DNA of 41,042 nt from IMG/VR virus record IMGVR_UViG_3300030451_003423, positions 1-41,042 of that record; one strand, 5' to 3'. Numbering within the stretch: the stretch's first letter is position 1; each line of letters starts with the position of its first letter. Both the position numbers and the translations under genes were made by a program. Positions 12,701 through 40,192 of this stretch are shown here, piece by piece. Below the pieces are notes generated by a model. That model worked only from the letters and a program-made list of their open reading frames with translations. It did not search any database and was not told the DNA's origin. Source of the stretch: a virus.

Positions 12701-14130
12701 CAGGTTTGCAAGTTTCAGGAACTATAGGAATAAATAGTGACACTGGTAGTAAGTTAAATATAACCAATACAGGTGATACTGCTCTAATGACGCTAACTCA
12801 ACAAAGTGCATCTTCAGGTAGAGTTACTCTTAAACTTAACACTAATGGTGGCGATTGGGAATTAGGTGCAAGAAATAATGCTAATAGTCTTCCTAACGCT
12901 TTTTATATATACGAAAATGATGATACTTCGTATAGATTTGTAATTGCTGATGGTGGTAATATTGGTATTGGAACTACTACACCTTCTCAGAAACTGCATG
13001 TTATAGGTAATGTAAAAGTTGATGGAGATGTTATAATAGATGCAGACCATAAGTTAAGAAGTAATACAGATGATACTTGGAATTTTATAGAGTTTGATGA
13101 TGATTCAGGAAGTCCTGAAAACCAAACATTAATAAGCAGCAAAACAAATACTGGTGTAATAGTAGACGGTAATAACAATGGAACAGGACAATTTGAGGTA
13201 TTAAAGGGTGGAACAGATGGTACTGCTACTGAATTATTTAGAATAGAAAATGATGGTGACGCAGTATTTACAGGGGATATATATTTATCAGGTGAGAAAA
13301 AAATACAATTTGACAGTACAGACACTACGATATATACTAACTCTGATAACCCTGAAGATTTATATATAGAATCAGATGAAGATATGTATATAAGACCTGA
13401 TGATAATTTAGTTATAGCACATGGTACTACTAACTATGTTACATTTAAAGGTGATGAAAGAGAAGTAGACATAACAGGTGATTTAATAGTATCAGCTGAT
13501 TTAACAGTAGATACAAGTACATTACACGTTGATTCTACTAATAATAATGTAGGCATAGGAACTACTAGTCCTAGCGCAGAATTACATATAAGCACAGCAA
13601 GTCCATATCCAAGCTTATTATTAGAAAGTACAGGTAATACTGCTAATATTATGAGATATACTACTTCTGATACTAATTGGACAATTGGTATTGATTATGA
13701 TGATAATTATTCTATTGCTAATGGAGCAAATATTACAAGTGCTAGAGTGCTTACAGTACTAAAGTCAAATGGTAATGTTGGAATAGGTACTACAAGTCCT
13801 ACTACTACACTTGACGTAGAAGGTACTGTATCATATAAGCATGTATCATTGACTGGTGATTCAGATGATTTAGATGTATCAGGAGTAACAGTAGTAGAAT
13901 GTACACCAAGTGGTACCAATAGGCTTGGAGGATTAACAGGTGGTGTTCAAGGACAAATTTTATATATATTAAAAGTAGACTCAGGATTTGGAAGAATAAT
14001 TATAGAACATAATGAAGGAACGGGAAATCAAGATATATTTTTAAGTGGAGGTTCAGATGTTCAACTTTCTACAAGAGGTGGAATGACATTGTATTGTAAT
14101 GGAACATCTTGGTTTGCTCTAGATAAATAA
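9775..14130 (+). CDS. Tail fibre with GIGTxxP repeats
   Basis: A 1451-residue fibre. A coiled coil (about residues 22-48) follows the N-terminal anchor. Residues about 245-275 contain ALDTLNELAAALNDDANF, a module common in long tail fibres of marine myoviruses. Four copies of the motif [V/I]GIGT followed by a proline a few residues on begin at about residues 538, 1063, 1259 and 1335. These mark shaft repeats, typically LHV or LDV strands after the proline. The C-terminus (about 1390-1451) is a compact Gly-rich tip ending in GTSWFALDK. No chaperone (S74) domain with its catalytic Ser is visible. It should bind the host receptor. Confidence 0.8.
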   Translation: MSKKVSYRKYTKSFGKEDDKRQLDETLDILKNQVDNLTSSVNTITSRGDADTYKGTPGDIKINKIAQNRYEFYIRGEDGWHKDNNASFGPIDEDKDLSDPPTVNMTSGQFNYGYEGNTRLTLNLDPTKISTSAVATPTVKGFGNLKFESTGNTILQSALQMKTVPNASTDPDKFLVLDASDNVKYRTGAQILSDLGIAADEIIDWTADQGSTNIHANNIVITHNEVTDFDSEVNALAQVKIDALVDSAPGALDTLNELAAALNDDANFATTVTNSIATKVGLTGDETVAGHKKFSDDVLIAGTAADTGTNDEVSLGVSGAQFRVHTNHGYVQIGPANTNWAHFYTDRDRYYFDEPVVVDGEYIASYNEDLVLRRVYNDTSYNQITIGDDSFELKLDNTVRLAIDGDGDITTGSWKGSVIASAYLDSDTAHLSGTQTFSGTKTFSNAVTIHTATDAQLNFKTSDDSWAYMQFLQNDGTRRAYIGIDNDLDRLIIAANENGANEIEINTTTVDMNASVDISGNLTVDTNTLFVDSSNNKVGIGTASPDANLQIHSTSGTKLWLTADGSNPADAASLRFAESENGNNYIQLSYDGSANTLSVDSNNHNDLSVWDRVNNRVTHGAQSRFYRAWPQVKFSDDSGTDYVDAGLTTNTFLLKTSDNDVNYQWQNSSSNILMSIDSAEKTVTIGEGPQSTYDFKIGNNGRMNMPVKGLEFENAHGYFASTGDMFLPLFINATQTDLIRFQTPQIIQYWDYSSSAWVDDSSNINNYKNMLDGRRATTYQVSNTKRKFRFVIERASTWADDQLFYIENTWSSITSGLSWNTAAAGGNPITPTMQVERLDGSFDASDDSNNDWTTNSGITTDWHTTGIVTGFGLMMYYSTGMHNSETHIRITVTIPEYADTSKVFSIKNLGVMSSYSSQNTNQQPFIQDFDRNATGYGHINIPSGHEYKINSVSKLSATTLGSGVVNSSLTNLGTLTGLQVSGTIGINSDTGSKLNITNTGDTALMTLTQQSASSGRVTLKLNTNGGDWELGARNNANSLPNAFYIYENDDTSYRFVIADGGNIGIGTTTPSQKLHVIGNVKVDGDVIIDADHKLRSNTDDTWNFIEFDDDSGSPENQTLISSKTNTGVIVDGNNNGTGQFEVLKGGTDGTATELFRIENDGDAVFTGDIYLSGEKKIQFDSTDTTIYTNSDNPEDLYIESDEDMYIRPDDNLVIAHGTTNYVTFKGDEREVDITGDLIVSADLTVDTSTLHVDSTNNNVGIGTTSPSAELHISTASPYPSLLLESTGNTANIMRYTTSDTNWTIGIDYDDNYSIANGANITSARVLTVLKSNGNVGIGTTSPTTTLDVEGTVSYKHVSLTGDSDDLDVSGVTVVECTPSGTNRLGGLTGGVQGQILYILKVDSGFGRIIIEHNEGTGNQDIFLSGGSDVQLSTRGGMTLYCNGTSWFALDK

Positions 14131-16922: not shown

Positions 16923-19900
16923 ATGGCTTTTAATCCTTATGGATTCTATGAGTATGGTGGTAAACCAGAACCTCAAGGAGATAAGGCTGCAACCCCTGCA
17001 GAGTTCACTCCTAGATACACAAAAAAACAATTAGATAGCATAATAAATGCTTATAAAAACAATCCTAAAGCATTTAAACCTGAGCATATAGATTCAATAA
17101 AACAACACGCAATATACCATAACACTGGCTTCTATGAAGGTGATTTTCAAATATCAGAAGCTATAAAACAATTTATGGGTGGTGTAGCAGAAGGTTTAAC
17201 AACATTTAGCCCTGTAGATGCGCCTGATAATGAATACGAAGCTATTGCACGTAATGTAGGACATTTACTTGGTTTTGCTCCAGGTATGGCTGCTAAACCA
17301 TTAAAGTTATTAGGCCTTAGAAATGCAGCTGCTAAAATAGCAGGATTTAAATCTATACCATTATATGTCGGTGAAAAAGCTACTAAACTTACAGGTAAAT
17401 TTGTAAAAAATGTTATTCCTACTGCTAGGTTTGATGCTACTAATACTGCAAGTAAATTTATAACAGGTGGAGCTGTTAAAAGCGTAGCAGAAGAAGCTAT
17501 GAAGCTTGGTGTTGCTAGTGCTGTAAGTAATTGGAAGCAAGGTGTAGATGGTGTAATGATGGCTGCTAGAAGTGGTGGTGAATTTGGTGCAGCATTTCAA
17601 ATACTTGCTAATGCAGTTCCAGGAAGTGGAACATTTAAATATTTATTAAGAGCATTTGCAGGTTCTATGTACCAAGGAATGCATGCTGAAGCTGCTGGAG
17701 CTACTACACCTGAAAAAGTATATGAATATTTACTTGGTGCATACTTTGGTGGTGGAGGTGCTAGTTGGGTACAAAAAGACAAAGCTAAGTTTTTTAAAGA
17801 GAGAAACGAGCAAATGTATGGTACTAAAGGTAAAAAAGCAGACCACAAAGCTCAAGCAACTGGAGACCCTACTCTTATAAAAACATGGGAAAAGTATGAC
17901 CCTATAGTTCAAAAAGAAATTTTAAAAGAATTAAATGACCCTAACTATTATGGTAAAGGTAAACCTAGTGAAAATTGGAGACCTCAGTACCAACTAAAAG
18001 AAGGTGAAACTTATCCTGAAAGAACAGCAATGCTTGAAATGTTTGTTAAAAACCTTGGTATAGACACTAAATTAGAAACAGTATCACAAAAAGGTTGGGA
18101 AAGATTTAACAGAATGCAAGAAGATGCTGTTATTGGTAAAAAACCAACTGGTCTTGCTATAGAAACTGAAAAAAAATTAAATGAGTTAAATATCCAAAAG
18201 AAAGATTTAGCAGAGCAAATAAGTAAAAAAAGAGCTGAAATAACTACTTTAAAAGGCACAGAAAAAATGCTTGCTGAAACAGAGCTTGGTAAGTTAGAAA
18301 GACAGGTTGAAGAAGTTATTAAGGAAGAAAAAATTCAACTTGATTTAAAACCTTTTGAATATATAGATAAAGCAGGTGAAATTAAAAACGAAAGAATGAA
18401 TGATACTGGTAACGATATTGGTATGATAGCTGCTATTGATTTAACAAAAAAATCAGAAAATCTTGTAACTAGGCATTTAAAAAAGTATTGGGATAAAGAT
18501 GACTTTGAGCCTATGGATAAACGAAATGAAATGTTACGTTTAACTCAAGTAGTAGATGATGTCGTAAGTGGCGAAAAATACAACAAACCAGGCGAAAAAA
18601 TTGATACCCAAGAGTTAACTCAAGATATAGTAAAAACTCTTAAAAAACAGGAAAATATCGACTTAAAAACTAACACTAAGAAGTGGAAAGAAACAGAAAA
18701 TGAATTAAGACAGTTTTTAACAAGACGTAACTTTTCTAAACCTGTTAGATATGTTAATATGAGCGTTGATACAGATGGTAAAATAACTGACTTTAAACTA
18801 AGAGATGGTGGTTTTACTAATGCTGGAAATAGAAAAGAAAGCATGGAGCCTAAAAAAGAAGTCCAAAGAGTTTTAGAAGAAGCTACACCCAAAGGCGAAG
18901 AAGTACCTGAAGCTAGTGTTATATTAGATAATATGACATTTAGAGGTCCTAAAGGTGAATGGATAGATGGCGGACTAGGAGATGTAAGAAAGCTTCTTAG
19001 AAATGCATATCGATTTAACAAAAAAGTAACATGGAGAGATGCGTACAATTCATTACTTAAAGAAGCTCATAAAAAAATGGCTGATGAAGGATATTATCCT
19101 TTTGGCGGTAAAGGTGATAATGATTTAATTATATATATTAAAGAACACCCTGATTTACAGAAAGCTAATGTTAAAAGATATATAAACGAATATATAACAG
19201 AGTTAAAAAGAGATGGTAATAATCGAAAGTATTATAATCAAGCTATAAAAAGAAACAAGTTCTTTAATGAAAAACAAGCTAAAGACCACTATGTAAGTAA
19301 TATTATGTATGACATAGGGTTAAATGGATTTAAACCTAAAACAAGCAAAGAATATAGAGAGGTTTTAAAGAAACTATTTGAAGGTAAAGGTTATATTAAA
19401 AATGCTACTGCTTGGAATAAACGTCAACAAATATGGTTTACACCTACTTACAGAGCTGATGGTGATTTTATTAATAGTAATTATAAAAGATATATAGAAA
19501 GATTAAGTCAAGCTGATATAAATGATATAAATCCCGCATTTAATAATGTTTTAAAAAATAATGAAGCTAATTATGTAATAGTAAGAGATTTAGACCCTGA
19601 GTTATTTACTAAATATGAAGGTACAAGAAAGAAAAAATTAGATAAAGATAGTAAAAATACTGAAATGGATGAGCATGTAGATGGTCAAATAACTGTAGAA
19701 GATAATTTATTAAAAGCTATTATTAAAGATGCTGGAATGCCTCAAAGTGGTAATAGTAAATCGTTTATTGTTAGTCCTGATGGGCAAATGGGAGCTTTAC
19801 TTGGTAAGTATATGATGCATAGCGCAGGACCAAAAGCATCTAGACAAATGCGTAAAGCTGGTGTACATATGATTATGCAGGAATCAGCTGTTAAACAAAG

Positions 19901-22900
19901 AGGTGAAAGAAAAATAACTGATTACCATGTTAAAAATAATAAACTAGAAATAGATGATTTAACTGCAATGTATAAACTGCCTTTAAAGGATATTAAATAT
20001 TCTTATAGTGTAAAAAATGATGATGCTATGGTAGGTTTAAATCCTAATGGAACTATGCATAAACATGGTGTGCCTAAACAGTTATTAATGGCAATGGCTC
20101 AAAATACATTTGAACCTTTTCCTAAAGAAATGATTGAAGATTTTTACAGAGAGACTGTATTAAAGAAATTTGATGGAAAAAAAGAGATAAATGAATTATA
20201 TGAAGATTATAAAAATAACCCAAAAAGTAAAAAATTACTTAGGTTATTAGAAGATAATATAGAAGATTTAGGTATTAATAAATTACTTGATGCAATAAAT
20301 GGTAATCCTACAAACTTTTCCGATGCCGCTTATATGCGTTTAATGAAAATACAAAAAGAAGATGTAATGCATAGAGTGGCTGATGGAGAAATGACTCCTG
20401 AACAAGCTGAAAAATTAATACAAAATATGGAAGAATTTAACAGCTCTATGGATAGAATAGTAGAAGCTGGACAACAATGGAAAACAAGAGAGCAATTAAT
20501 TGGTAGAGAAGGCAATATTAATCCTTTATTAATGCATAAATGGATAAGGCCATACAGATTCCAAGTAATTAGAAACTATGTATTTAACTCACTTAGTAGA
20601 CCAAAGATAGGTAATAGTGGTGTAGCCCGTATGCGTGGTTATGATAAATGGTTTCAAACAGAATTAGATTCAAAAGGTAAAAAGAAATTTGGTGAATTAG
20701 AAACAAATGATGAAATATTTTATCTAGATGATGCATTTAAAAGAATGCCACTTAAAACTACTATTAAAGGTTATGAGGATACTACTTTAAGTGAATTATG
20801 GTATGATTCAAAAGGTTTTGGCAAAAAGAAAAAAGCACAAGCAGATGAAGTATTTACTGCTTTAACAGTAAGAGTACCTATGGACTCTGTTAGTGGAGCT
20901 CAAAGGATGGTATTTAAAGGATTTACAGATAGGCCTGGACATGGTATATTAATGCACAGTAGAGCTATGAAAGCAGAAGGTGGTGCTGACCTTGATGGTG
21001 ATGAATCTTTCATATTTTTTGGCGGAAGAAAAGGCGATAAAGGTGAAGGTTTTAGAAAGGAATGGATAGATAAATTCCACGAAAATAAGACAGAGTTTTA
21101 TAATGAAGATGGTACGATTTATAATAACAAAAATAAAAAAGCTGTTAAATCTTTAACTATGCAAGACTCTATTAAAGAAACAGGTATTGACCCTGAAGCT
21201 AGAGATAGTAAAATGTGGCAATATGATTCGCAATGGAGACAAGATATATCAGAAAGAGCTGTAGAAGGTCGTAACTTATTAGGTGGTACAGTAAGTGGTG
21301 CTCAAGTATTAAAAGCTGCTCACAATGCAATGCTTCAAATGAAACAAGGGCATAAATTTACTGTTTATAAAGGTAGAAAAAAGTTTGAAATAAGATTAAT
21401 ACCTAGAACTGAAAAAGCAGAACTTGAACAAGCTAGAAAATTAGCATCTTCAATGATAGCGTTTACGTCTGACCCTCTTGATGTAGCTGGTTTAACAGGT
21501 TACAAAGATTATATGAGCAAATTAACTAATGCTTATTTTAAAGTAAAGATAAATGGTAAAGATGCAGAAGTAACTCCTGAAAATCAAACTCAGGTATTTA
21601 ATAAAGAGGGTATAATAGGGCAAGTTAGAGATATAAATAAAGCTCTTTATAGTAGAGATTATTACAATAACAAATCTTGGGACGCTATAGATATAAATCA
21701 AATGACTTCTGTTACAAAAGAAAATAGCTCTTCACCTCTTAGAAGTTCAAGGCTTCATAATAGTATGCTAATTAAAATAGGACGTTTAGCTGCAGATGTA
21801 GAGTTATATGATAGTCCGTTTAGAATGGTAGCACCAGAGCGTTTAGTTGCAATGTATAATGATTACAATAATATAACTCAAAGAATACCTATGTTTAAAG
21901 ATTTGCTTCCAAACGTTAAAGTTACACCAAACAATTTAATGTTAAAGATAATGGGCATTAAGGTTAAGGATGGAAAAGTATTTGAAACAGGTAAAAAGTT
22001 ATACGAACAGCAAGAATTAGAAAGAGTTGCTAATAATTTACCTGAATTTTATGAGTATATTAATCATAAACAAAGTCAATTTAGACCTGGTGGAAGTGAG
22101 AGAGATAAATTTAGTGATTCTTATGCTCAAAAAAATCGTCAATATAGAATAGATAAATTAAAAGAATTAATAAAGTTTTCTGAAGATGCTTTAACACAAG
22201 ATGTAAGTGATATGGTGTCAGTTAGACAAATATTTAGATATTATGATGGTGTCGAAGTAAATCCTACAATGTTTAGAAAGATACTAAAACAAACTCAAGA
22301 TTTAAAAAACAACAGTTATCTTCAAAGAAAAGAACTTACTGAAGAAGCTGTAGAAAGAAAACATATAAGAGCTATAAGAGAAATGTTTGGCGTGCCTGAA
22401 ACAGCTGAATTAGAAAAAAGTGCTACATTAAATCAAGCTGAATTAGATGTTGCAATTAAAGCAGCTAAAGATAGTATGCCTAATGCAAGAGCTAGAAAAC
22501 TATTTGACCATTTAATGCTTGGAACTTTTAGACATAGTACTATGGAAACTGGTGTAAATAAACTAGGATTTGCGTCTAAAGCTATAGACCCTGCTAGTTT
22601 AACAGATTTTGTTGGCGACTTTACACAAGTAATGACTAAAGCTTATAAAACTCCTTCACCAAACTCTGAATTAAATCGTAAACTATTTAAAGACATTAGG
22701 TTTGAAAAAGATTTGCCTGAAGGAACAATACTTGAAGATACTACTACAGGTTATGAAGGTCTTCATGGTAAACCTGATATGAAATTGATACCTAAACAAG
22801 TTAGACAAGAAATTACTGAACTTGTTGATATATTAAGTAAATATAATAATAAAGTAGGGCAAGATTTAAATCTAATAACTAGAGATTTATTAGGAAAAGA

Positions 22901-25802
22901 TTTTAATGCAATGGACTATGCTGATATAAAAAATCTAAATAGGTATTTTAAAGAGTTGCAAAGAGGTAGTATTTGGCAAAGATTATTCAGAGAAAAAACT
23001 CCTGACCTTAGAAAAAGATATACAATGTTATTTCCTCTTACAATAAATAGAGAGACAATGAAGTATGATATTCACCTTATGAAAAAAAGAGGCTTGTTTA
23101 TGACTCAAGCTGGTGATATTGCTTCTGGTGACATGGCAAGACCTACAAATATTACAGAGAAGCTTCATCATGGTATAACACTTGCTATGGATAAATCGCA
23201 AGCTAAAGGTGATGAAGAGGTGTTTAAACTACGAAGAGAGCTAGAGTTTCTTGACGGTATAGATGAAGGTGAAGCTTTTAGAATGATTGGTGTAAGAAAA
23301 CTTGAAGCAGATGGTAATGTAGCTAGAACGCTTGGCAGAAAAGATGTACAAGGTAAGATTTGGGCACGTAATTATATTGAAGCTTTAAAAAGTGATATAA
23401 AAGACACTAATTACGATGTTATTCAAAATAATAGATACAGAATAACTCAAAGAACACCTGAAGGTGAAGTTAAACGTATTGAAATGACAGGTAAAGATAT
23501 TACTAATAAAGTAATAAAAATTTATAAAAATCATTTTCAAAATGTTTACGATAAAGTTATTAGAGGCAACCAAGAATTTCTTGATAGTTATCATAAAAAA
23601 AGTAAACATGGTACTAAAATGTATCATGATTATAAAGATTTCAAAAGTTTAAATGACCCTATTAATGGTGGTAAACGTAAAATGCCAATGGAACCTATTT
23701 ACGATTACCAAAGATTTATTAAAGATGTTTATAAAGCATACGAAAGAGGTGAAGATATTACAACAGACCTTGGTATAGATGGTATTAGAGCTATAGCTCG
23801 TTCTATGATGGTTCAGTTGCATCCTCAGTATAAACATAAATATAAAACACCTCAAGAGCTAAGAGCTCAAATAGGATTAACACTTCCTACAGGTAAAATT
23901 GAAGAAGGTTATTGGCCTCATATGTTATTTGATAAAGGTTTAGCAAGTAAAGCACTTTTAAATGCTTTGCAAAAAATTGATAAATCTACTATGACAGCTG
24001 CTGAAAAGAAAGAAGAAGCTAGAAAAATTCAAATGCGCAGTAAAACTTTAACAGGTGATTGGATTACAGGTACAGAGAATTGGGATGCTTTTGATGCTAA
24101 AATGCACCCTAAAAAGTTTAAAGGTAATCCTATAACTTGGAAAGAATCATTACAAATGACTTCTTCAATGCATAAAAGAACAAGTCACATTCCAGGCCAC
24201 TCTATTGACGCTACTGTTGCTGAGGTTTATACTCGTAACATGTATCAAACTTACTATAAACAATTAGCTCAAATGTTATCTAGAAAAACATTATTTGATT
24301 TTGATATGAGAGCTATTGAGATGGGTTGGGCTAAAGAATGGACAGGACCTAAAGGTAAACAAAGAACTTTAAAAGATAGATGGCATGATTGGTATAGTTT
24401 ATATGTTCAAGATGCTTTAGGACATCCAAGCACTATTCCAGAGTATATATTAAATGACCCAGGAATGAAAATAAAAGGGACACCTTATGCTTGGTGGGCT
24501 GATAATGTTGTAGCTAATAAAATGAATAAAGTTGCAAAAGCTATTGGCCTTAAAACACCGTTTAAAGATGTAGATAAATTTGATGTAAATGATGTTAGAG
24601 CTTTATCTAATCTTGAAGCTAGGTTTGAGCTTATGTCTTTACTTGCGCATCCTAAGTCTGCTGTTGTTAACTTATTTGGTGGCTCACTGCATACTATCCA
24701 AAGTGCAGGTGCTTCTGCTCTTAGGAAAGTTTATAATTATGGATTTTTAAAACAGATAAATCCTAATTGGACATCACGTCAAGCTATTAAAGATTTTGCT
24801 ATACAACAAGGTGTTTTCCCTGAGATGTTAGCACATGAGTGGGGAATGCAAAAGACTTTACAGAGTAGTAAAGCTAAAACTTTTGTTAAAGATTTAGTTG
24901 AAAATGTATCTAAAGAAGGTACAGTAAATCCTGATAAAGTTCGTGAACTTGCTTCAAAACATAATGTTGGTAGAAACGTTATGGAATTTGCTGCTAAGTT
25001 TATGTCTAAACCTGAAATGAAACTGCGTACTGATGCGTTTATGGCACATTATATTAAAGCCTGGGAACGTTTTGGTGGTGCTATTACTCAACATGACCAT
25101 CCATTCTTAATTGAAATGGCTAAGAAAGGTGTTAAAGCTACACAGTTCTTATATGATTCGGTAAATCGTCCAGCATTTGCTAGAACAGGTTTAGGTAAGA
25201 TAATGACACGTTTCCAGTTATGGTCTTGGAATGCTTGGCGTTTTAGAAATGATGTTAATCGTGAAGCTCGTATACGTGGTTATCGTCAAGGTACTCCTGA
25301 GTATGAAAGATTTAAAAGAACAGCGTCTATAGATTTATTAGTTTATGCTCTTGGCAGTGTGTATGCTATGAGTATATTTGAAAATGCTATTCCTGCACCT
25401 TATAATCATCTTAAAGAAGCTTCTGAATTATTGTTTGGCGATGATAAAGAAAGAGAAAGAGCGTTCTGGGGATTATATCCTAGGTCTATAGCTCCTCTTC
25501 AAGCTATTACTCCACCTGTTGTTTCTAGAGCAATTGAAGGTTTAAAAGCTATGAGTAGTGATGATTATGAAAAGTTCCTTGATTACCATATTTATACATT
25601 TATGCCATTTGGTAGGATAGCTAGAGATATATCTCCATGGGCTAGTGGTAATTTAATTGATAATCCTTATAGATTTATTGAAAAGACTACAGGTATACCA
25701 TATGGTGATATACAAAGAGAACGTTCTAAATATAAAGATGAGTTAGCATATCATCCTACATTCCAAACAGCTGCTCAGTTAAAACAACAAATAGAAGATT
25801 AG
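16923..25802 (+). CDS. Giant virion protein with candidate two-barrel RNA polymerase core
   Basis: A 2959-residue protein. Residues about 80-290 are Ala/Gly-rich and amphipathic, as in ejection proteins. About 2620-2900 holds another ejection-type region (NRPAFARTGLGKIMTRFQLW near 2748). Between them are marks of a double-psi beta-barrel RNA polymerase. The first barrel would hold HVDGQI (D920), LLGKYMMH (K962) and MQESAVKQRG (K991). The second is DRPGHGILMH followed by EGGADLDGDESF, with D1356, D1358 and D1360 matching the metal-binding DxDGD of cellular beta', YonO, crAss-phage virion polymerase and eukaryotic RNA-dependent RNA polymerases. Downstream, NLLGGTVSGAQ and IAFTSDPLDVAGL (near 1510) fit conserved segments after the active site. 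It would be injected with DNA and transcribe early genes. The motif is seen; the polymerase call is inference. Its stop overlaps the convergent gene by 4 bases. Confidence 0.7.
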   Translation: MAFNPYGFYEYGGKPEPQGDKAATPAEFTPRYTKKQLDSIINAYKNNPKAFKPEHIDSIKQHAIYHNTGFYEGDFQISEAIKQFMGGVAEGLTTFSPVDAPDNEYEAIARNVGHLLGFAPGMAAKPLKLLGLRNAAAKIAGFKSIPLYVGEKATKLTGKFVKNVIPTARFDATNTASKFITGGAVKSVAEEAMKLGVASAVSNWKQGVDGVMMAARSGGEFGAAFQILANAVPGSGTFKYLLRAFAGSMYQGMHAEAAGATTPEKVYEYLLGAYFGGGGASWVQKDKAKFFKERNEQMYGTKGKKADHKAQATGDPTLIKTWEKYDPIVQKEILKELNDPNYYGKGKPSENWRPQYQLKEGETYPERTAMLEMFVKNLGIDTKLETVSQKGWERFNRMQEDAVIGKKPTGLAIETEKKLNELNIQKKDLAEQISKKRAEITTLKGTEKMLAETELGKLERQVEEVIKEEKIQLDLKPFEYIDKAGEIKNERMNDTGNDIGMIAAIDLTKKSENLVTRHLKKYWDKDDFEPMDKRNEMLRLTQVVDDVVSGEKYNKPGEKIDTQELTQDIVKTLKKQENIDLKTNTKKWKETENELRQFLTRRNFSKPVRYVNMSVDTDGKITDFKLRDGGFTNAGNRKESMEPKKEVQRVLEEATPKGEEVPEASVILDNMTFRGPKGEWIDGGLGDVRKLLRNAYRFNKKVTWRDAYNSLLKEAHKKMADEGYYPFGGKGDNDLIIYIKEHPDLQKANVKRYINEYITELKRDGNNRKYYNQAIKRNKFFNEKQAKDHYVSNIMYDIGLNGFKPKTSKEYREVLKKLFEGKGYIKNATAWNKRQQIWFTPTYRADGDFINSNYKRYIERLSQADINDINPAFNNVLKNNEANYVIVRDLDPELFTKYEGTRKKKLDKDSKNTEMDEHVDGQITVEDNLLKAIIKDAGMPQSGNSKSFIVSPDGQMGALLGKYMMHSAGPKASRQMRKAGVHMIMQESAVKQRGERKITDYHVKNNKLEIDDLTAMYKLPLKDIKYSYSVKNDDAMVGLNPNGTMHKHGVPKQLLMAMAQNTFEPFPKEMIEDFYRETVLKKFDGKKEINELYEDYKNNPKSKKLLRLLEDNIEDLGINKLLDAINGNPTNFSDAAYMRLMKIQKEDVMHRVADGEMTPEQAEKLIQNMEEFNSSMDRIVEAGQQWKTREQLIGREGNINPLLMHKWIRPYRFQVIRNYVFNSLSRPKIGNSGVARMRGYDKWFQTELDSKGKKKFGELETNDEIFYLDDAFKRMPLKTTIKGYEDTTLSELWYDSKGFGKKKKAQADEVFTALTVRVPMDSVSGAQRMVFKGFTDRPGHGILMHSRAMKAEGGADLDGDESFIFFGGRKGDKGEGFRKEWIDKFHENKTEFYNEDGTIYNNKNKKAVKSLTMQDSIKETGIDPEARDSKMWQYDSQWRQDISERAVEGRNLLGGTVSGAQVLKAAHNAMLQMKQGHKFTVYKGRKKFEIRLIPRTEKAELEQARKLASSMIAFTSDPLDVAGLTGYKDYMSKLTNAYFKVKINGKDAEVTPENQTQVFNKEGIIGQVRDINKALYSRDYYNNKSWDAIDINQMTSVTKENSSSPLRSSRLHNSMLIKIGRLAADVELYDSPFRMVAPERLVAMYNDYNNITQRIPMFKDLLPNVKVTPNNLMLKIMGIKVKDGKVFETGKKLYEQQELERVANNLPEFYEYINHKQSQFRPGGSERDKFSDSYAQKNRQYRIDKLKELIKFSEDALTQDVSDMVSVRQIFRYYDGVEVNPTMFRKILKQTQDLKNNSYLQRKELTEEAVERKHIRAIREMFGVPETAELEKSATLNQAELDVAIKAAKDSMPNARARKLFDHLMLGTFRHSTMETGVNKLGFASKAIDPASLTDFVGDFTQVMTKAYKTPSPNSELNRKLFKDIRFEKDLPEGTILEDTTTGYEGLHGKPDMKLIPKQVRQEITELVDILSKYNNKVGQDLNLITRDLLGKDFNAMDYADIKNLNRYFKELQRGSIWQRLFREKTPDLRKRYTMLFPLTINRETMKYDIHLMKKRGLFMTQAGDIASGDMARPTNITEKLHHGITLAMDKSQAKGDEEVFKLRRELEFLDGIDEGEAFRMIGVRKLEADGNVARTLGRKDVQGKIWARNYIEALKSDIKDTNYDVIQNNRYRITQRTPEGEVKRIEMTGKDITNKVIKIYKNHFQNVYDKVIRGNQEFLDSYHKKSKHGTKMYHDYKDFKSLNDPINGGKRKMPMEPIYDYQRFIKDVYKAYERGEDITTDLGIDGIRAIARSMMVQLHPQYKHKYKTPQELRAQIGLTLPTGKIEEGYWPHMLFDKGLASKALLNALQKIDKSTMTAAEKKEEARKIQMRSKTLTGDWITGTENWDAFDAKMHPKKFKGNPITWKESLQMTSSMHKRTSHIPGHSIDATVAEVYTRNMYQTYYKQLAQMLSRKTLFDFDMRAIEMGWAKEWTGPKGKQRTLKDRWHDWYSLYVQDALGHPSTIPEYILNDPGMKIKGTPYAWWADNVVANKMNKVAKAIGLKTPFKDVDKFDVNDVRALSNLEARFELMSLLAHPKSAVVNLFGGSLHTIQSAGASALRKVYNYGFLKQINPNWTSRQAIKDFAIQQGVFPEMLAHEWGMQKTLQSSKAKTFVKDLVENVSKEGTVNPDKVRELASKHNVGRNVMEFAAKFMSKPEMKLRTDAFMAHYIKAWERFGGAITQHDHPFLIEMAKKGVKATQFLYDSVNRPAFARTGLGKIMTRFQLWSWNAWRFRNDVNREARIRGYRQGTPEYERFKRTASIDLLVYALGSVYAMSIFENAIPAPYNHLKEASELLFGDDKERERAFWGLYPRSIAPLQAITPPVVSRAIEGLKAMSSDDYEKFLDYHIYTFMPFGRIARDISPWASGNLIDNPYRFIEKTTGIPYGDIQRERSKYKDELAYHPTFQTAAQLKQQIED

Positions 25803-30824: not shown

Positions 30825-31496
30825 CTACTTTTCTCCTTTCGTTGTTTTATAGATGTTTTTCCAATCAAACTCTATGTGTTGTCCTCGTAAATGTTCACAT
30901 CTACTACCTGCTTCTATAGATTCATCTGCTTTAAATGATATCATTAGTTTGTCATCTTCTCTTAAGACATAACCGATAGCGTCACAATCCGACATAATCA
31001 GATTCTTCAGCTTACCAGTTATATCTAAAGATTCAGGTTCAACAAGAGCCTTGCCATCGACAACAGCTCTTGCAACCTTTCTATGACCAACGATAATCAA
31101 ATGTTCACAAACGTCTCTAAAAGCATTGATAGTATTCATTACTTTTTCACGAGCCAACGCATAACCTTTACCGAATGTTAAATCAGCTATAGATGCTACT
31201 TCATATTCTTCGCAGACAGCTTTTTCAGCCCATTCTACAACTTTGTCAATAGTATCTATTGCTATGTATTTAAATTCGTGACCTTCCATAGCATCTTTAA
31301 GAGTTTGGATTAACTCTTCTCGGTTATTAACTTCTTGAACATATGCTTCTAACATATGTGTTCCTTTTTCTGTGTCTATAATCAGACAGTCATCTAATTG
31401 TGAAAGCATAGTAGTTTTACCTACTTTCGGTGCTCCATACATTAGAAGAACTTTCGGATTTAGAGACACGGGTTTGCGTTTCTGTTTTTTCAACAT
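30825..31496 (-). CDS. Sak4-like RecA-fold ATPase
   Basis: A 223-residue single-domain NTPase: Walker A GAPKVGKTT (21-29), acidic residues at IIDTEKG (D41), Walker B YIAIDTID (D81), and sensor-like LIIVGHRK near residue 134. This fits the phage RecA-like AAA_24/Sak4 group, which promotes single-strand annealing or recombination together with an SSB. It is followed directly by the SSB-like gene, a known pairing. AAGGA precedes the ATG at 31496. The first 80 bases overlap the end of the E1-like gene. Confidence 0.75.
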   Translation of the reverse strand: MLKKQKRKPVSLNPKVLLMYGAPKVGKTTMLSQLDDCLIIDTEKGTHMLEAYVQEVNNREELIQTLKDAMEGHEFKYIAIDTIDKVVEWAEKAVCEEYEVASIADLTFGKGYALAREKVMNTINAFRDVCEHLIIVGHRKVARAVVDGKALVEPESLDITGKLKNLIMSDCDAIGYVLREDDKLMISFKADESIEAGSRCEHLRGQHIEFDWKNIYKTTKGEK

Positions 31497-32172
31497 CTGT
31501 CATTCCTTCTATTATTGCTGGGTTTACTAGCCCCTCTTCAAGTGATAAATAGGGTGCTAACGATTTATAAATATACATATAAAATGACCTATTATGCAAG
31601 ACATTATATACTTGTGACAACATTAAGCCAGCAATTGTGTTTGCTGTAAATATTGTATGTTTTGCAGTACAAGGTAAATCAGGTATATCTTTACTAGATT
31701 GCCATCTTTCTAGATAGGTATCTCTTAAAGGTGTAGCTGTATGTATATCCATTGACAATGCTCCCATACGTCCATCCACAAGAACTGTACGCTTTGGATT
31801 TCTAGACCAATTCATATATACAATCTTACGAACTTCCATATTATCAGGAGCCATCATAACACATGGTGTTAAACCATCTAAAATACTGTATTCACCATGT
31901 TCTATGATTTCTGTGTGTTCACATCCAAAGTATTTAACTAACTCTTTGGCTGCTTCTGTTTTTGACTTACCCAAATATTGTTGTGGGTACATCGTTGTGC
32001 TTAAGTTATGTTCTTGAAGCACATCATAATCCCAAACATGAATCTTTCTAAAGCCCATTATGGCAGCTGATAGTATGAGCGCAGAGCCCACACCACCAGC
32101 ACCAATAATGGTAACTTCTTCTAGATTCTTTTGGTTTATTATGTCTTTATTCCTTAAGAATCTACTTGACAT
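31417..32172 (-). CDS. E1-like (ThiF/MoeB) adenylyltransferase
   Basis: A 251-residue Rossmann enzyme: GAGGVGS (24-30) nucleotide loop, DYD (48-50) ribose-binding acidics, NLSTT (56-60) in place of the usual NLxRQ, LGKSKTEAA (68-75) with the ATP-contacting lysine, APDN (108-111), and LPCTAKHTIF with C168, a candidate catalytic cysteine. The family adenylates the C-terminus of a ubiquitin-like protein and often forms a thioester with it. The canonical arginine after NL is replaced. It sits in one run with JAB, E2-like and ubiquitin-like genes upstream, so it should activate the 77-residue protein at 34838-35071. The C-terminal tail (about 227-251, Ser/Thr/Glu-rich) is encoded in the Sak4 overlap. 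Confidence 0.85.
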   Translation of the reverse strand: MSSRFLRNKDIINQKNLEEVTIIGAGGVGSALILSAAIMGFRKIHVWDYDVLQEHNLSTTMYPQQYLGKSKTEAAKELVKYFGCEHTEIIEHGEYSILDGLTPCVMMAPDNMEVRKIVYMNWSRNPKRTVLVDGRMGALSMDIHTATPLRDTYLERWQSSKDIPDLPCTAKHTIFTANTIAGLMLSQVYNVLHNRSFYMYIYKSLAPYLSLEEGLVNPAIIEGMTDVEKTETQTRVSKSESSSNVWSTESR

Positions 32173-32352
32173 TTATTCCTCTCTTTCTCTATTATGATTG
32201 TGTTGTAATTCAAGCATATGGTCAAGAAATGGAACATCAAAAGGTTCTGTTGCTCTATCTGCATCAGGACTTCTTTTAAATAGTTCTTCACCAAATGATT
32301 TAACTAGCTTTTTAAAGGCGGTAAATGGTATTTCTATTGTATCTTTACTCAT
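32173..32352 (-). CDS. Small protein in the ubiquitin-like cassette (59 aa)
   Basis: The ATG overlaps the JAB stop (ATGA) and GGAGG precedes it; the stop abuts the E1 start. The product begins MSKDTIEIPFTAFKKLVKS and ends in a His/Arg/Glu-rich stretch. It is too short for an enzyme. Its place between JAB and E1 with coupling on both sides marks it as part of the same system, perhaps an adaptor. No family recognised. Confidence 0.65.
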   Translation of the reverse strand: MSKDTIEIPFTAFKKLVKSFGEELFKRSPDADRATEPFDVPFLDHMLELQHNHNREREE

Positions 32353-33185
32353 CTAGCACCTCCAAACAATCCTATTTGAAAGCAATAATCGTCTAGTTTC
32401 TTTTCAGCTTCTGTTGCTTTTTGATTAGCTTCATCACTTTTAGGGTGATTCCAATGTAAAGACTGATAGTAATCTTCTTTCTTGCGAAAATCTTCAAGTA
32501 GTTTTTGATACTTTTTGTCTTTTACATCATCATCGTAGATTTCCTTATTGTTATAAGAACCCCACATACTAACTTGTCTAGTATAAGGATTATTATACCT
32601 AACAATATTAGATGTTTTAACAACAGTTTTAGCTTCTTTTTCTTGCTTAACAAGAGATTTAACACATTCTGCAAATGCGCCTTTAGGTTTATATTTATCC
32701 CATTCAATCTCATATTCAGCTTTTGTGTAATCAGTTACTATTGTATGTCCACGCTGAGTTGTATAACTTACAGCAAATGCATATGGACTACCTGTAGAAT
32801 CATGAGCTACAACAAGAGATGGGTAACCTGTATTATTAGCGCAATGCTCTAATTGGTCTTTATCTACACTACTAATATAAGCACCACCTGATAATCCATG
32901 GTGACTATGTATTAAACCTTTATAGCACTCTTTAAGTTTTGGATTATCTTTATATGCTTTATCTTGTGTATCCATCAATTGTTCACCATCAAACTCTGTT
33001 GCAGCACTACTACCTAAATCAATAGGATAAAATGCTTCAATTCGCCATGTATCTGACCAATTGTGTTTGTCTGGTTCTACCATCTTATAAAATGCAACAC
33101 CTGACCATTCTGTTTTAGGAAACAGATTCAGTAAGTGTTTCACTTGTTGATGTACTTTCTTCGGAATGATTATTTTCATTTCCAT
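32349..33185 (-). CDS. JAB/JAMM-domain metallopeptidase (deubiquitinase-like)
   Basis: 278 residues with a JAMM zinc centre: E26 in TEWSG, then IHSHHGLSGGAYISSVDKD with H93, H95, S105 and D108. The spacing between the second His and Ser is two residues longer than the commonest form. JAMM proteases remove ubiquitin-like proteins from targets or trim their C-termini. Residues about 150-278 form an extra charged domain of unknown role. GAGG lies six bases before the ATG at 33185, which falls 71 bases inside the E2-like gene, so the two are read in overlapping frames. It would process or recycle the ubiquitin-like protein of this cassette. Confidence 0.85.
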   Translation of the reverse strand: MEMKIIIPKKVHQQVKHLLNLFPKTEWSGVAFYKMVEPDKHNWSDTWRIEAFYPIDLGSSAATEFDGEQLMDTQDKAYKDNPKLKECYKGLIHSHHGLSGGAYISSVDKDQLEHCANNTGYPSLVVAHDSTGSPYAFAVSYTTQRGHTIVTDYTKAEYEIEWDKYKPKGAFAECVKSLVKQEKEAKTVVKTSNIVRYNNPYTRQVSMWGSYNNKEIYDDDVKDKKYQKLLEDFRKKEDYYQSLHWNHPKSDEANQKATEAEKKLDDYCFQIGLFGGAR

Positions 33186-34713
33186 TTTTTGCCTCTCTTT
33201 CGTAGTTTTCTACATATGCACTAAGTTCAGCATATTGTAGTTCTAGTTTCTTTTTGTAAGATAAGTTAAATAGATATTCGTATTCATCATACATAGATTG
33301 TGCTTGTGTCATTAACTTTTGATATTCTTTAAATACATCAATTACTTGTTTTTTTGATGATAAATTTCTAGCATAATCAAGCATTTCCATGTAATCGTTA
33401 AACTTTTTACCACCTTCCCAACAATCCATCCATGAATGTAAAAATGAACTTATGTCTTTAGTGCCACCACCATAATACACGGCATCTTGAAGACTATGTA
33501 ATTCATTTAAAATAGAATTTATTGCTGTATAAGATTTAAAACATTTACTTTTTAAGTCTAAATCTTTTTCATCTCTAGATGGTGAAAAGCTAAAAGAATC
33601 ACTATAAGTGGAATGTCTAGGTTTTTTATTAAAATACATACTATAATGACCACTTACACTTTGATTTAACCTACGTAAATCAGCAGACATGCTATCAGTC
33701 CATTTGCCATCATATTCTTTTTCAATATTTGAATTTTGAATCATTATTTTTACAAAATCATTTGTAACGACAAATTTCTCTGATTGTGTTAATTCAGCAT
33801 AACTAGGTGTATCACAAAACTCATCAAAATGCCAAAATAATGTCATCCAAGCTGTTTTTACTTCTTGAGTTTGATACACAGGCTCAATTTTCTCTTCATT
33901 AAGAGGTTTTATTGCTTCGTTATATAATAACATAGTTCTACCTAAAGGTTCTGAATCATAAGCTTTCTTTCTAGCACTTGGAAGCATTATTTTATCATAA
34001 CTATATGCATAGTCTATATCATATTTTTTCGCTAATACTGAAGCAGGCCTTAAGAAATTATAACCTTGACCTCGTTCAGCTACTTCAAACATACCAACTA
34101 TTAAATTAGGATGATAAGATTTAATACTTCTTTCAAACACTTCAGGACGATAATGTGGGCTATTATAAGTCCAAGTATTTAAATACATTTGCATTTTTTC
34201 AAGACCACCTATATAACTATGTGCATTAAAAGATGTTTTAATCTCAGTTTCCCAATCAGCCATACAAGCTATACCACTTTGTATATGCGGATGTGCTGCA
34301 GCTACATATTTATACTCTATTTCATTTTTATTATTTATTATTGGTTCTTTTGTATAAAATTTCCAAGTAGTTTTACTATAACCATTATTTACCAATCTTA
34401 AATAATAATCGCCAAGCCTAAAGATTTTACGTCTTCTAATTTTAATATCTTTAAACTTAACCCAAAGTTCAAAAGAACCCTTTTCTACTTTAAAACCATG
34501 ACAATTCTTTTCTTCATCATTGGTTATTACGTCAACAATTTCGAAACTTGCATGATTAACAAGAGATTTAGCTAAATCCTTTGAATCATATTGTGGTCTA
34601 ATAAAATCTTGTTCTCCATAATGGTCAAATTCACTAACCATTACATCAATAACTTTATTATCCCTTTTCTTTATAGCTTCTAGCATGCTATATACTTGAA
34701 CAAACATGTTCAT
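33115..34713 (-). CDS. E2-like conjugating protein with large C-terminal extension
   Basis: 532 residues, not obviously matching a named family over the full length. Residues about 80-190 have an E2 (UBC) look: antiparallel strands (FELWVKFKDI, YYLRLVNNG), then HPHIQSGIAC with H141-P-H143 and C150, followed by a helix (GLEKMQMYLNTWTY). Prokaryotic E2s commonly have HPH before the catalytic Cys where eukaryotic ones have HPN. The remaining 340 residues are mostly helical with a Ser/Thr/Glu-rich tail. It is the gene next to the ubiquitin-like protein and overlaps JAB, exactly where an E2 would be expected. AGAGGT precedes the ATG. If C150 is catalytic it would take the ubiquitin-like protein from E1 and pass it to a target; the extension may choose the target. 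Confidence 0.6.
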   Translation of the reverse strand: MNMFVQVYSMLEAIKKRDNKVIDVMVSEFDHYGEQDFIRPQYDSKDLAKSLVNHASFEIVDVITNDEEKNCHGFKVEKGSFELWVKFKDIKIRRRKIFRLGDYYLRLVNNGYSKTTWKFYTKEPIINNKNEIEYKYVAAAHPHIQSGIACMADWETEIKTSFNAHSYIGGLEKMQMYLNTWTYNSPHYRPEVFERSIKSYHPNLIVGMFEVAERGQGYNFLRPASVLAKKYDIDYAYSYDKIMLPSARKKAYDSEPLGRTMLLYNEAIKPLNEEKIEPVYQTQEVKTAWMTLFWHFDEFCDTPSYAELTQSEKFVVTNDFVKIMIQNSNIEKEYDGKWTDSMSADLRRLNQSVSGHYSMYFNKKPRHSTYSDSFSFSPSRDEKDLDLKSKCFKSYTAINSILNELHSLQDAVYYGGGTKDISSFLHSWMDCWEGGKKFNDYMEMLDYARNLSSKKQVIDVFKEYQKLMTQAQSMYDEYEYLFNLSYKKKLELQYAELSAYVENYEREAKNGNENNHSEESTSTSETLTESVS

Positions 34714-34837
34714 TGTTTACCTCTACTTTCTTTTTTTAGTTAAATAGACTACACAGGGAATTTCACCTTTACCACATTTATGCCATCGTGTAGCTTCATA
34801 TGCTACATCACCTCGTCTATTTATTGTTAATTACCTC

Positions 34838-35071
34838 TTATTTACCAGACTTGTTAGAAGCCATAGTAATTGTTACACTATCCCCAGCGTTGATTGCTGT
34901 ACCCATATCAACATTATCTCTTGCAACACCACCATTTGTGATTCTGATGATTACGTTGCTCATTGATAAGTTAATATCTTCCAAAATAGAGCCAACTGTT
35001 GGAAATTTATCAGTTGTTTCTGGTCTTGGAGTTCCGTTAGGTGTGTCTAGGTAAAACGTATTATTTGACAT
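34838..35071 (-). CDS. Ubiquitin-like (ThiS/MoaD-type beta-grasp) protein
   Basis: 77 residues. From residue 25 the order TVGSILEDINL, NVIIRITNGGVARDN, GTAINAGDSVTITMAS follows the ThiS/MoaD pattern: TVxxLLExL helix, VxVxxNG hairpin, then the INAGDxVxI strand that ends the beta-grasp fold. The C-terminus is S75-G76-K77 rather than Gly-Gly. Removal of the last Lys by the JAB enzyme would leave Ser-Gly. AAGGA lies nine bases before the ATG. It is the first gene of the run containing E2-like, JAB and E1-like genes, supporting a conjugated modifier rather than a sulphur carrier. The fold is inferred from pattern, not computed. Confidence 0.65.
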   Translation of the reverse strand: MSNNTFYLDTPNGTPRPETTDKFPTVGSILEDINLSMSNVIIRITNGGVARDNVDMGTAINAGDSVTITMASNKSGK

Positions 35072-35100
35072 ATCATATGTCCTTTCTTGGTGCTTTATCT

Positions 35101-35153
35101 TTTGTTTATAAAAAGAGCCTGAAAAGCAACACCAATTAAACTAATCAGGCTCT
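35101..35153 (-). terminator. Leftward intrinsic terminator ending structured region 1
   Basis: Perfect 9 bp stem AGAGCCTGA (35114-35122) with TCAGGCTCT (35145-35153). On the minus strand it is followed directly by TTTTTATAAAC, a fair T-run. The 22-base loop is long. It lies between the structured region and the ubiquitin-like gene, so it would end the noncoding RNA or act as an attenuator for the cassette. Confidence 0.65.
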
Positions 35154-35820
35154 ATGAGGCAAACTGGATTGTTCGCCTAATTTTTTGAGAAGCGTATCTG
35201 ATGCTTATGGTTCATCAGCTAACCACCGAGGCTGGCTATAGAATTTTATCTCGGTTTTATTTGCATGCTTCCAGCTTTGTGTATACACTTCTCAAATTTT
35301 TGGTAACTCCTGCAACTTCCAGCCAGGCAATGTTCAACAAAATGATAACTCAATAATCGGAATCTAATGAAAGAAGATTCTTTGAAATGTCAAATAGCAA
35401 ACTGAGTGCTATTTAGGGAGTTTTTATGCTGTTACCAATATTTAGTAGAAGGAGATAGTGCTTTAAATAGTGCCTATCTATCTTTTAGTCTGCAGACCAG
35501 CGACCTTCTACTAATTTAATTCTTGGCATACTTTCAAGGTAGGCGCGCGGTCCTTTAAACCTTGCTGTTAGGTATGCCAGCCATAACCGATAGGGCTAGT
35601 AATCACTACTTGTATGTTATTTGCTTTTTACTATATCAAGTACCAATCGTCCTCTAGCCCTATTTAATTCTGCAAGACTGCACGCAAATAAGGGGATGTG
35701 TGCGGAAATATACTCGAAAGATAAGTTTACGTGCAGTCTTTTTAGATGAGTTGTATTAAGGACGTAATAAAGATAGAGCATGAATTACTCTATGACATGT
35801 TAAGAAAGGATAAAACTCAT
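35114..35820 (-). ncRNA. Candidate large structured noncoding RNA, cluster 1 (nine hairpin domains)
   Basis: No supportable gene lies in 35072-35857. Nine closed domains follow one another with 3-10 base spacers. Outer stems: 35114-35122/35145-35153 (9 bp); 35157-35164/35171-35178 (7 bp, one mismatch); 35184-35192/35288-35296 (9 bp); 35300-35307/35431-35438 (8 bp); 35442-35452/35504-35514 (11 bp); 35524-35531/35572-35579 (8 bp); 35590-35599/35654-35663 (10 bp); 35674-35684/35730-35740 (11 bp); 35746-35752/35814-35820 (7 bp). Most enclose inner stems of 6-8 bp, e.g. AAATAGCA/TGCTATTT at 35392-35414 and CAAGGT/ACCTTG at 35535-35564. None has tRNA arms. The strand is set to minus because flanking genes run leftward and the last hairpin ends in a T-run on that strand. 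The layout recalls ornate large RNAs such as GOLLD or ROOL, without shown homology. Confidence 0.7.
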
Positions 35821-35857
35821 GTCTAACGCCCCGATTGCTCTCACGATACAATCCAAC

Positions 35858-37621: not shown

Positions 37622-37652
37622 TTATTCTCCTTTTATTTTAATCTATTAAGTT

Positions 37653-38188
37653 TTGAGCAGTTTACTCCCTATATAGGGCAATCCTCACATTGCTCAGGAG
37701 GCGCGAGTTGACAGCAGTTTTATGTCATGCTTAATAGGACAGATTTATATGCGCCTAGTAATAGTTACTACCGTAACTTAATACTGAAGTGTAATACTAT
37801 CAATAGTAACTACTACTAGCTGTTTTATGCGCAATTATGTAACATTAAAGTAATTCTCAACTTTTCCATATATTCAAGTCTCTACATTACCGAAGCAGTC
37901 GGTCTCTTACAAAGTAATGCGTAATTATTTTTAATGTTACAATTGTTTATACGTTTCATGTTTTGCTATTTAGCTTAAGTATGATACTAAGAGTGTTAAT
38001 TAAGTATCCGCAATTATGTCGGCCTTCTTTGATAGAGTCAGCGGGTTTCTAGCCCTACTACTATCTTTAACAGCTCTTAGTGTGGTTATCTATACTTGGA
38101 TTTATTGTACCACAACCAATATAGTTGCCGTTTAGACATGTTTTTAAATCTATTAATGTCTTCCTTGGGCCACCTATTAGTAGCCCAA
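37653..38188 (-). ncRNA. Candidate structured noncoding RNA, cluster 2
   Basis: The gap 37622-38225 holds no supportable gene but many nested stems: 37654-37659/37691-37696 enclosing palindrome CCCTATATAGGG (37667-37678); 37755-37770/37804-37819, 16 bp with one mismatch, closed outside by TGCGC/GCGCA (37750-37754/37829-37833); 37838-37849/37930-37941, a perfect 12 bp stem enclosing CATTAC/GTAATG (37885-37890/37914-37919); 37986-37993/38074-38081, 8 bp, continued by GTTA/TAAC and enclosing GATAG/CTATC; and TTGGGC/GCCCAA (38165-38170/38183-38188). There is no T-run at either end. It could be a free RNA or the long leader of the gene at 37621. Strand inferred from flanking genes. Confidence 0.55.
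37830..38019. repeat. Direct repeat CGCAATTATGT, two copies
   Basis: The 11-mer CGCAATTATGT occurs at 37830-37840 and 38009-38019, each just beside or within a different hairpin domain of cluster 2. Entry spans both copies. Confidence 0.6.
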
Positions 38189-38225
38189 AGAATTAACATT
38201 CTTCTGTTACTAGGAACATATTTAC

Positions 38226-39080: not shown

Positions 39081-39424
39081 TAGATACGCATTAGTTGGCA
39101 TACGTATCTACCTGTGATTTTCCAACGTTGTATATCTATTCGCAGGCGATATACAAGCCAACTCGTTGGAACGTTTTAATTAAATAGATTACACGCAGGT
39201 AATTCTCCTGTCACCTTTGATTGTGCTAATAACAGCTCTTCTTGCCTCTGTCCCATTGCCAATCTCTCGCACCATCCATCTCTAGTATATCTCTAGAACC
39301 TCATCTATTTAATAAGCTTTTAATGCAAGGACTAGTTACCCGCCTTATAGTAATTTAATACTGTTAACAGGCGGAATTGTCCACTTTATGGCTTCTGGCG
39401 TATCTAGCTAATACCTTGCATTAA
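39081..39424 (-). ncRNA. Candidate structured noncoding RNA, cluster 3
   Basis: Within the 39021-39549 gap: TAGATACG/CGTATCTA (39081-39088/39103-39110, 8 bp). TTCCAACG plus TTGTATATC (39120-39136) pairs with GATATACAA (39148-39156) and CGTTGGAA (39164-39171), 17 bp interrupted by one 7-base bulge. ATTAAATAGAT/ATCTATTTAAT (39179-39189/39303-39313, 11 bp) encloses CAGG/CCTG and TCTAG/CTAGA hairpins. TTAATGCAAGG/CCTTGCATTAA (39320-39330/39414-39424, 11 bp) encloses CCGCCT/AGGCGG (39340-39345/39369-39374). No gene is supportable here. The perfect nested stems argue for a folded RNA. Strand inferred from flanking genes. Confidence 0.6.
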
Positions 39425-39858: not shown

Positions 39859-40072
39859 GACGTTTCGTCACGATACGTTTTGCATCGCAAGATGCACGGG
39901 GGAAGAAAGGCACCTAAACCGCGAAATGCTTTATTACGCTCAGTGCTTGGGGATATAACTAGGTTTAAAATGCGAACACAAGGGTGAATTAACAGTGAGC
40001 ATTTTCAACGTAGTTAACCCCCACACGGGCGTAATTTCGAGCGGTGTGGTGCACTATATCTCTGACACACCC
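39859..40072. other. Structured intergenic control region
   Basis: Part of the 39826-40450 gap between divergent arms; no gene supported. It holds GACG-TTT-CGTC (39859-39869); TGCATC-GCAA-GATGCA (39881-39896), a 6 bp stem with a GNRA-type tetraloop; AAATGCT/AGCATTT (39924-39930/39998-40004); CCACAC/GTGTGG (40021-40026/40044-40049); and GGGTG/CACCC (39982-39986/40068-40072). By eye it is richer in G and C than coding DNA around it. It could be the leader of the leftward transcript, a further noncoding RNA, or an origin. Confidence 0.4.
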
Positions 40073-40192
40073 ATTCTACCGCTATTTTTTCAAAAACGGC
40101 CTTTTCAACGCGATATAGGACGATTTATCATAGGTGTAAGTGCTTGTTTTTACTAGACTTAAAAATTTTTTTAAATTTTTTTTCCAAAACCC

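Follow-up and report, generated by a model that had tools for sequence, protein, structure and literature searches.

GOLLD and ROOL are abundant discrete RNAs that form multimeric cages, and they usually, though not strictly, lie near tRNA genes. The preQ1-I riboswitch is an H-type A-rich pseudoknot, and pseudoknots at ribosome-binding sites occur both there and in T4 gene 32. The put elements of HK022 are antitermination RNAs. GOLLD and ROOL have been described as large, highly structured phage RNAs, with the 5′ half of GOLLD being less conserved (PMC12286853). Permuted ribozymes are also on record, e.g., the hammerhead, which occurs as types I–III and in permutations (PMC10085705).

The locus described here lies in a 41-kb IMG/VR virus record from an uncultured phage (the whole stretch analysed, 41,042 nucleotides, is called the window). 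Its leftward gene block (26.4–39.8 kb) includes genes for an exonuclease, endonuclease VII, a primase-helicase, Sak4 and ThiF/E1. Among 50,697 phage records, the primase-helicase has only distant relatives (best 27% identity), and many close relatives of it were found in IMG/VR contigs; the phage and its relatives are related marine phages. The rightward operon consists mostly of three very long ORFs on the plus strand, at 2834–9775 (2313 aa), 9775–14130 (1451 aa) and 16923–25802 (2959 aa). Inside the leftward early operon, flanked by ORFs of 122 aa (family unknown) and 77 aa, is the array at 35072–35857, for which the original prediction had claimed a gene-free chain of nine closed hairpin domains. 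All nine were confirmed at these coordinates on the minus strand, and no ORF of at least 60 aa is confined to the interval on the operon strand; a 54-aa ORF within the array is not conserved in L044, the closest relative (L numbers denote related loci). Read 5′ to 3′ on the minus strand, the domain order in the window is E-D-D7-A-D5-B-D3-K-C, as follows.

35750–35857, minus strand: domain E, CGUGAG...GGGCGUU-[hairpin]-GUCC-UUNAUAC, which folds and has homologues in L044, L047, L058 and L084
35674–35740, minus strand: domain D, with a 15-bp outer stem and a CGCACA-type loop
35590–35663, minus strand: domain D7, AUAGGGCUAG..CUAGCCCUAU, which folds and has a homologue in L044 only
35524–35579, minus strand: domain A, UGGCAUAC..GUAUGCCA, with a variable interior
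35442–35514, minus strand: domain D5, a mobile domain whose interior recurs in L104 and L144
35300–35438, minus strand: domain B, a beta-first (permuted) form of a putative alpha/beta pseudoknot module
35184–35296, minus strand: domain D3, UUUGAGAAG..CUUCUCAAA, which folds
35155–35179, minus strand: domain K, a short hairpin AGGCGAACAAUCCAGUUUGCCU kept beside C in relatives
35113–35154, minus strand: domain C, a 13-bp hairpin whose loop UUGGUGUU (35128–35135) is predicted to form a pseudoknot with 35087–35093

Folding of the minus strand returned the nine closed domains with a minimum free energy of −212.9 kcal/mol, versus −178.2 ± 5.7 kcal/mol for 20 dinucleotide shuffles (z −6.1), which is more structure than chance would give, in line with the original prediction. 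The plus strand gave z −5.4, and span-limited folding gave z −6.8 on the minus strand and −3.4 on the plus strand. In a scan of 450-nt pieces, ORF-free gaps outfolded coding pieces, with 60 of 160 versus 7 of 50 at z ≤ −3. Over the four counted alignments (A1, A2, A3 and A8), 39 G-U cells were found versus 0 A-C cells, so that selection acts on the operon-strand RNA. Co-variation, whose absence was to have told against a structured non-coding RNA, was seen in domains B, C and D and, to a minimal extent, in A. Among six homologues of domain D, 6/9 outer pairs changed on both sides and 100% of the cells are paired, and the outer stem of domain A is 100% paired in 12 homologues with a single compensatory change. 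Domain E, which begins immediately 3′ of the stop codon of the 122-aa ORF, gave a weak consensus fold (five sequences). A pattern search of viral contigs with domain D returned mostly chance matches and yielded the close relative L017/L044. The fold and the co-variation together bear out the claim of a structured non-coding RNA and support the view that the domains are probably structures of operon-strand RNA; what co-variation reveals is a fold and not a function.

The array shares with GOLLD and ROOL the character of a large, highly structured phage RNA. The original prediction had seen this likeness while adding that no sequence match could be claimed, and that caution was justified: Rfam cmscan at gathering scores gave 0 matches for the window and 12 related loci, nothing in Rfam 15 rose above chance at gathering or permissive thresholds, and GOLLD and ROOL, both held in Rfam as families, were not matched in the permissive search either. 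The likeness itself, in the sense of one large conserved RNA, is unsupported, since the relatives have in common only the order in which optional domains follow one another, and these domains are found at other places too, alone or in other combinations. In contrast to RNAs with one overall secondary structure, the array is a mosaic whose domain content varies by genome, and no tRNA or tmRNA was found in the 41-kb window. With a model match, a common architecture and a tRNA neighbourhood all lacking, the array is not GOLLD or ROOL.

Domain C stands next to the 77-aa ORF, and two further features define its setting.

35087–35093, minus strand: GCACCAA, the putative 3′ pseudoknot strand of domain C, which immediately precedes the Shine-Dalgarno-like AAAGGA (35080–35085)
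34838–35071, minus strand: the 77-aa ORF, with a predicted ubiquitin fold and a conserved C-terminal NKSG, directly 3′ of the array

A hairpin with a T-run had been noted at the left end of the array. Both are present, and the hairpin is domain C. However, among the ten printed copies the T-run occurs only in the window, as well as in the closest relative L044, and it is thus not a conserved terminator. In an alignment of the ten copies anchored by hand on both pseudoknot strands, both-side changes occur in six stem pairs and three pseudoknot pairs, and the pseudoknot is 100% paired. The compensations in the pseudoknot comprise GG/CC to AG/CU (L066), GA/UC (L163) and A-U/U-A swaps, supporting domain C as a likely pseudoknot. 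In 10/10 copies the loop UUGGUGUU pairs with AACACCAA, 1–6 nt before the Shine-Dalgarno, so that a co-varying strand sits where it does in a translational-control pseudoknot. This is shared with the ribosome-binding-site pseudoknots of T4 gene 32 and preQ1-I, whereas the sequence and geometry of domain C differ from theirs. The position beside the Shine-Dalgarno argues for control of translation initiation.

The structure of the 77-aa protein was predicted with a pLDDT of 91, and its top PDB matches by Foldseek are archaeal ubiquitin, ubiquitin variants and SUMO (E ~3e-3, TM-scores <0.6); its homologues terminate in NKSG. The interval 31417–35071 on the minus strand encodes this ubiquitin-fold protein (ending NKSGK), a 532-aa protein of unknown family, a JAB-like protein and ThiF/E1. 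The JAB-like protease was called by eye from an HSHH...SSVDKD stretch and has no Pfam match. The ubiquitin-fold protein, ThiF/E1 and the JAB-like protein together suggest that 31417–35071 is probably a ubiquitin-like conjugation operon.

The near-invariant, bipartite core of domain B (CUGGCUNNAAGUUGCAG + AUAAAAACUN'N') consists of an alpha strand, CUGGCUGGAAGUUGCAG, and a beta strand, AUAAAAACUC, which in the window are placed as follows.

35417–35427, minus strand: beta strand AUAAAAACUCC, an A-rich loop and then the 3′ strand of the putative pseudoknot helix P2
35310–35326, minus strand: alpha hairpin CUGGCUGGAAGUUGCAG, stem P1, with a loop predicted to pair with beta

The exact alpha 17-mer was found in 79 stretches of viral contigs, and alpha and beta occur together in 62 places, nearly all intergenic and in sense; these contigs may include near-duplicates, and the B counts are of non-redundant flanks rather than independent events. 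Three strand orders are represented among the 62: 25 are beta-first, as in the window, 22 are contiguous, and in 15 alpha and beta are separated by an insert. Divergent copies escape searches by exact pattern. When two alpha-loop positions were left free, they paired with the two bases after ACU in 31/31 contiguous copies, the pairs being GG/CC (20), GG/CU (2), GU/AC (2), UC/GA (2), CC/GG (2), UC/GG, AG/UU and GA/UC, i.e., 5–6 pair types at each position, with the non-canonical pairs coming from at least five distinct combinations. Every pseudoknot cell pairs in 26 aligned copies, a result reached by 0 shuffles and compared with 20–59% in slid controls. Since the free positions all pair, above both controls, these data support a pseudoknot between the alpha loop and beta as the likely structure of domain B. 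No variants appeared when the AAGT of the alpha loop was left free; the four inner pairs of the pseudoknot are thus invariant and beyond the reach of co-variation testing. The outer helix (35431–35438 with 35300–35307) has 8/8 pairs changed on both sides among beta-first copies, which were aligned after the variable beta-alpha insert had been removed by hand.

Domain B has the H-type arrangement with an A-rich third loop, its hairpin loop pairing with a downstream strand via the A-rich linker AUAAAAACU, as in preQ1-I. However, it has no spare P2-P1 loop for a ligand pocket, its loop sequence is different, its strands come in permuted orders, its copies are often remote from any start codon, and no Rfam match to the preQ1-I riboswitch was obtained; it is not preQ1-I. 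The core was also without an exact match in one genome each of 84,980 prokaryote species, and when the whole region and the B core were searched against cultured phages at the nucleotide level, only chance-level matches came up. Since the core is conserved beyond the needs of the fold, and in many gene contexts, it should bind something, and we infer that it may recognise some phage or host factor. Many copies of B immediately follow a gene for a protein that ends in an SSB-like acidic tail (DDLPF/DDEIPF; L132, L138, L151, L156, L167, L191 and others). Within domain D3, GCUGGAAGC..UGCAAAUAAAACC resembles a decayed alpha/beta core, although relaxed matches of this kind are not above chance.

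The slot of the array is filled by hairpin chains in the window and seven relatives (8 genomes), in sense with the flanking genes, and the array domains recur among the relatives as families. L044 lacks D5 in its array slot and has an unrelated hairpin at the position of D3; other arrays read E-D-A-B-K-C (L084), A-B-K-C (L051) and A-J-B-K-C (L163). Family J (AAAUAGAYGAGG..GUGUAGUCUAUUU) has two copies in different slots of the window, at 34741–34823 and 39182–39311 on the minus strand, and occurs in L106, L163 and L124. In L104 the D5 interior follows the E1 gene, and in L144 it follows the ubiquitin-like gene and is enclosed by a different outer stem. Frame M (TGACAGGCGAGT..ACTAACGAGGGTCA), which is not in the window, is widespread (40 stretches), with an identical insert in copies that have two different outer stems, and no fewer than five different frames carry the cassette GAAGAGCCUCAUGGGCAAGUCCCGUGGACGAAC or its core. 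A count of isolated conserved blocks whose flanks are dissimilar gave 1436 in non-coding DNA versus 51 in an equal amount of coding DNA, with inflation of the two largest clusters, whose motifs had been used to fetch loci; in loci fetched by the primase alone the numbers are 79 non-coding versus 7–23. The array is thus a mosaic in the compared sequences, in which entire domains appear or disappear between genomes and different frames bear identical apical cassettes, supporting the view that the domains have probably been gained, lost, permuted and moved as units. Further gene-free hairpin clusters at 37622–38225 and 39021–39549 fold at about −23 to −26 kcal/mol per 100 nt, and parts of them are kept in relatives. 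Frame X (AACUGGUCCUAUAAG..GGAAUAUGUGAGGCUCUCU), a motif not used to fetch loci, is present at ~29 loci (e.g., L051, L132, L183 and L198) and shares cassettes with frame M.

We lean towards a cis-acting array, a reading that we hold to be slightly more probable than improbable: exchangeable RNA modules would be embedded in an mRNA, where domain C would control how the ubiquitin-like gene is translated. The untranslated spacer of the leftward early mRNA would carry nine RNA domains that fold independently and act in cis on that mRNA, and these domains would come from a library of modules that related marine phages share and shuffle. Domain C would switch or tune translation of the ubiquitin-like gene, and the remaining domains, above all the B core, may be interchangeable modules at which a phage or host factor binds or processes the RNA. 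Several alpha/beta copies lie directly 5′ of the next ribosome-binding site; however, only C and some B copies are near a start codon, most domains being elsewhere, and the partly kept order E-D-A-B-K-C also suits a single variable RNA. Such an RNA, processed from the early mRNA and working alone in trans, perhaps as a multimer like GOLLD or ROOL, would fit the length of ~800 nt, the dense structure and the partly fixed order with optional domains between. However, a promoter scan found sites no more numerous than in shuffles, a conserved terminator and an Rfam match are lacking, the composition is too fluid for one quaternary structure, and single domains stand alone in other slots, which makes a discrete trans-acting RNA unlikely.

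Hairpins in a phage early operon are shared with the HK022 put RNAs, and the leftward early operon has arrays at intervals along its length (34.7, 35.1–35.9, 37.6–38.2 and 39.0–39.5 kb), as expected of put-like elements that bind RNA polymerase and are repeated along a long operon to suppress termination. Per base, far less structure was seen in two sampled gaps of the rightward operon (at 2.2 and 14.1 kb), and the strong sequence conservation of small hairpins fits polymerase contact. However, the array contains many unrelated families that vary by slot and genome with no element common to all, and no sequence relation to put was seen, so that antitermination is a distinctly doubtful account. 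A self-cleaving ribozyme that cuts the mRNA appears less probable still, for module B and perhaps others, even though a near-invariant core, a pseudoknot, a size of ~60 nt and one conserved core in three strand orders recall the permuted hammerheads (PMC10085705). Domain B has no hammerhead core recognised by Rfam, no Rfam ribozyme, hammerhead included, was matched in the window or 21 related loci, and there is no recognisable cleavage site; moreover, conserved candidates of such appearance can fail, as ten tested besides hammerheads did not cleave (PMC10085705). Clean-bordered blocks that move between frames would also suit inverted repeats acting as DNA, i.e., as mobile hairpin cassettes or as recombination or replication sites, but the excess of G-U over A-C, the co-varying pseudoknots and the constant orientation to genes already disfavour this reading, which we regard as very improbable.

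Beyond the array in the window, the modules may belong to a combinatorial system used by related marine phages, in which conserved frames (A, B, F, M and others) with exchangeable apical cassettes would be strung into early-operon arrays and evolve by RNA domain shuffling, with the ultra-conserved B core recognising a common partner in all three strand orders; we put this forward tentatively, as plausible but somewhat short of probable. Taken singly, the elements, e.g., a pseudoknot or a structured leader, are of familiar types. What appears to be new as a category is their combination, in which RNA frames are shuffled, cassettes are exchangeable and one core exists in three strand orders; we know of no counterpart. 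The array is therefore called new in kind, given also the lack of a family match in Rfam 15 and a search of the open-access literature that found neither the motif sequence nor a similar system. Several RNA families that co-variation supports and Rfam lacks were obtained together, one of which exists in three strand orders, and they provide a clear case of RNA modules swapped like protein domains, suggesting that in some phages accessory functions may be carried by RNA instead of small proteins. Two predictions follow, namely a translational pseudoknot before a phage ubiquitin-like operon and a B-core partner that binds all three permuted forms.

Elsewhere in the window, an element at 39990–40110, with repeated GTTGAAA words and TAGAATG..GATATA, is kept in ~19 relatives between divergent transcription units. 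It was considered as a leader RNA and dropped, since the repeated GTTGAAA words look more like DNA sites, and it is possibly a promoter or origin region.
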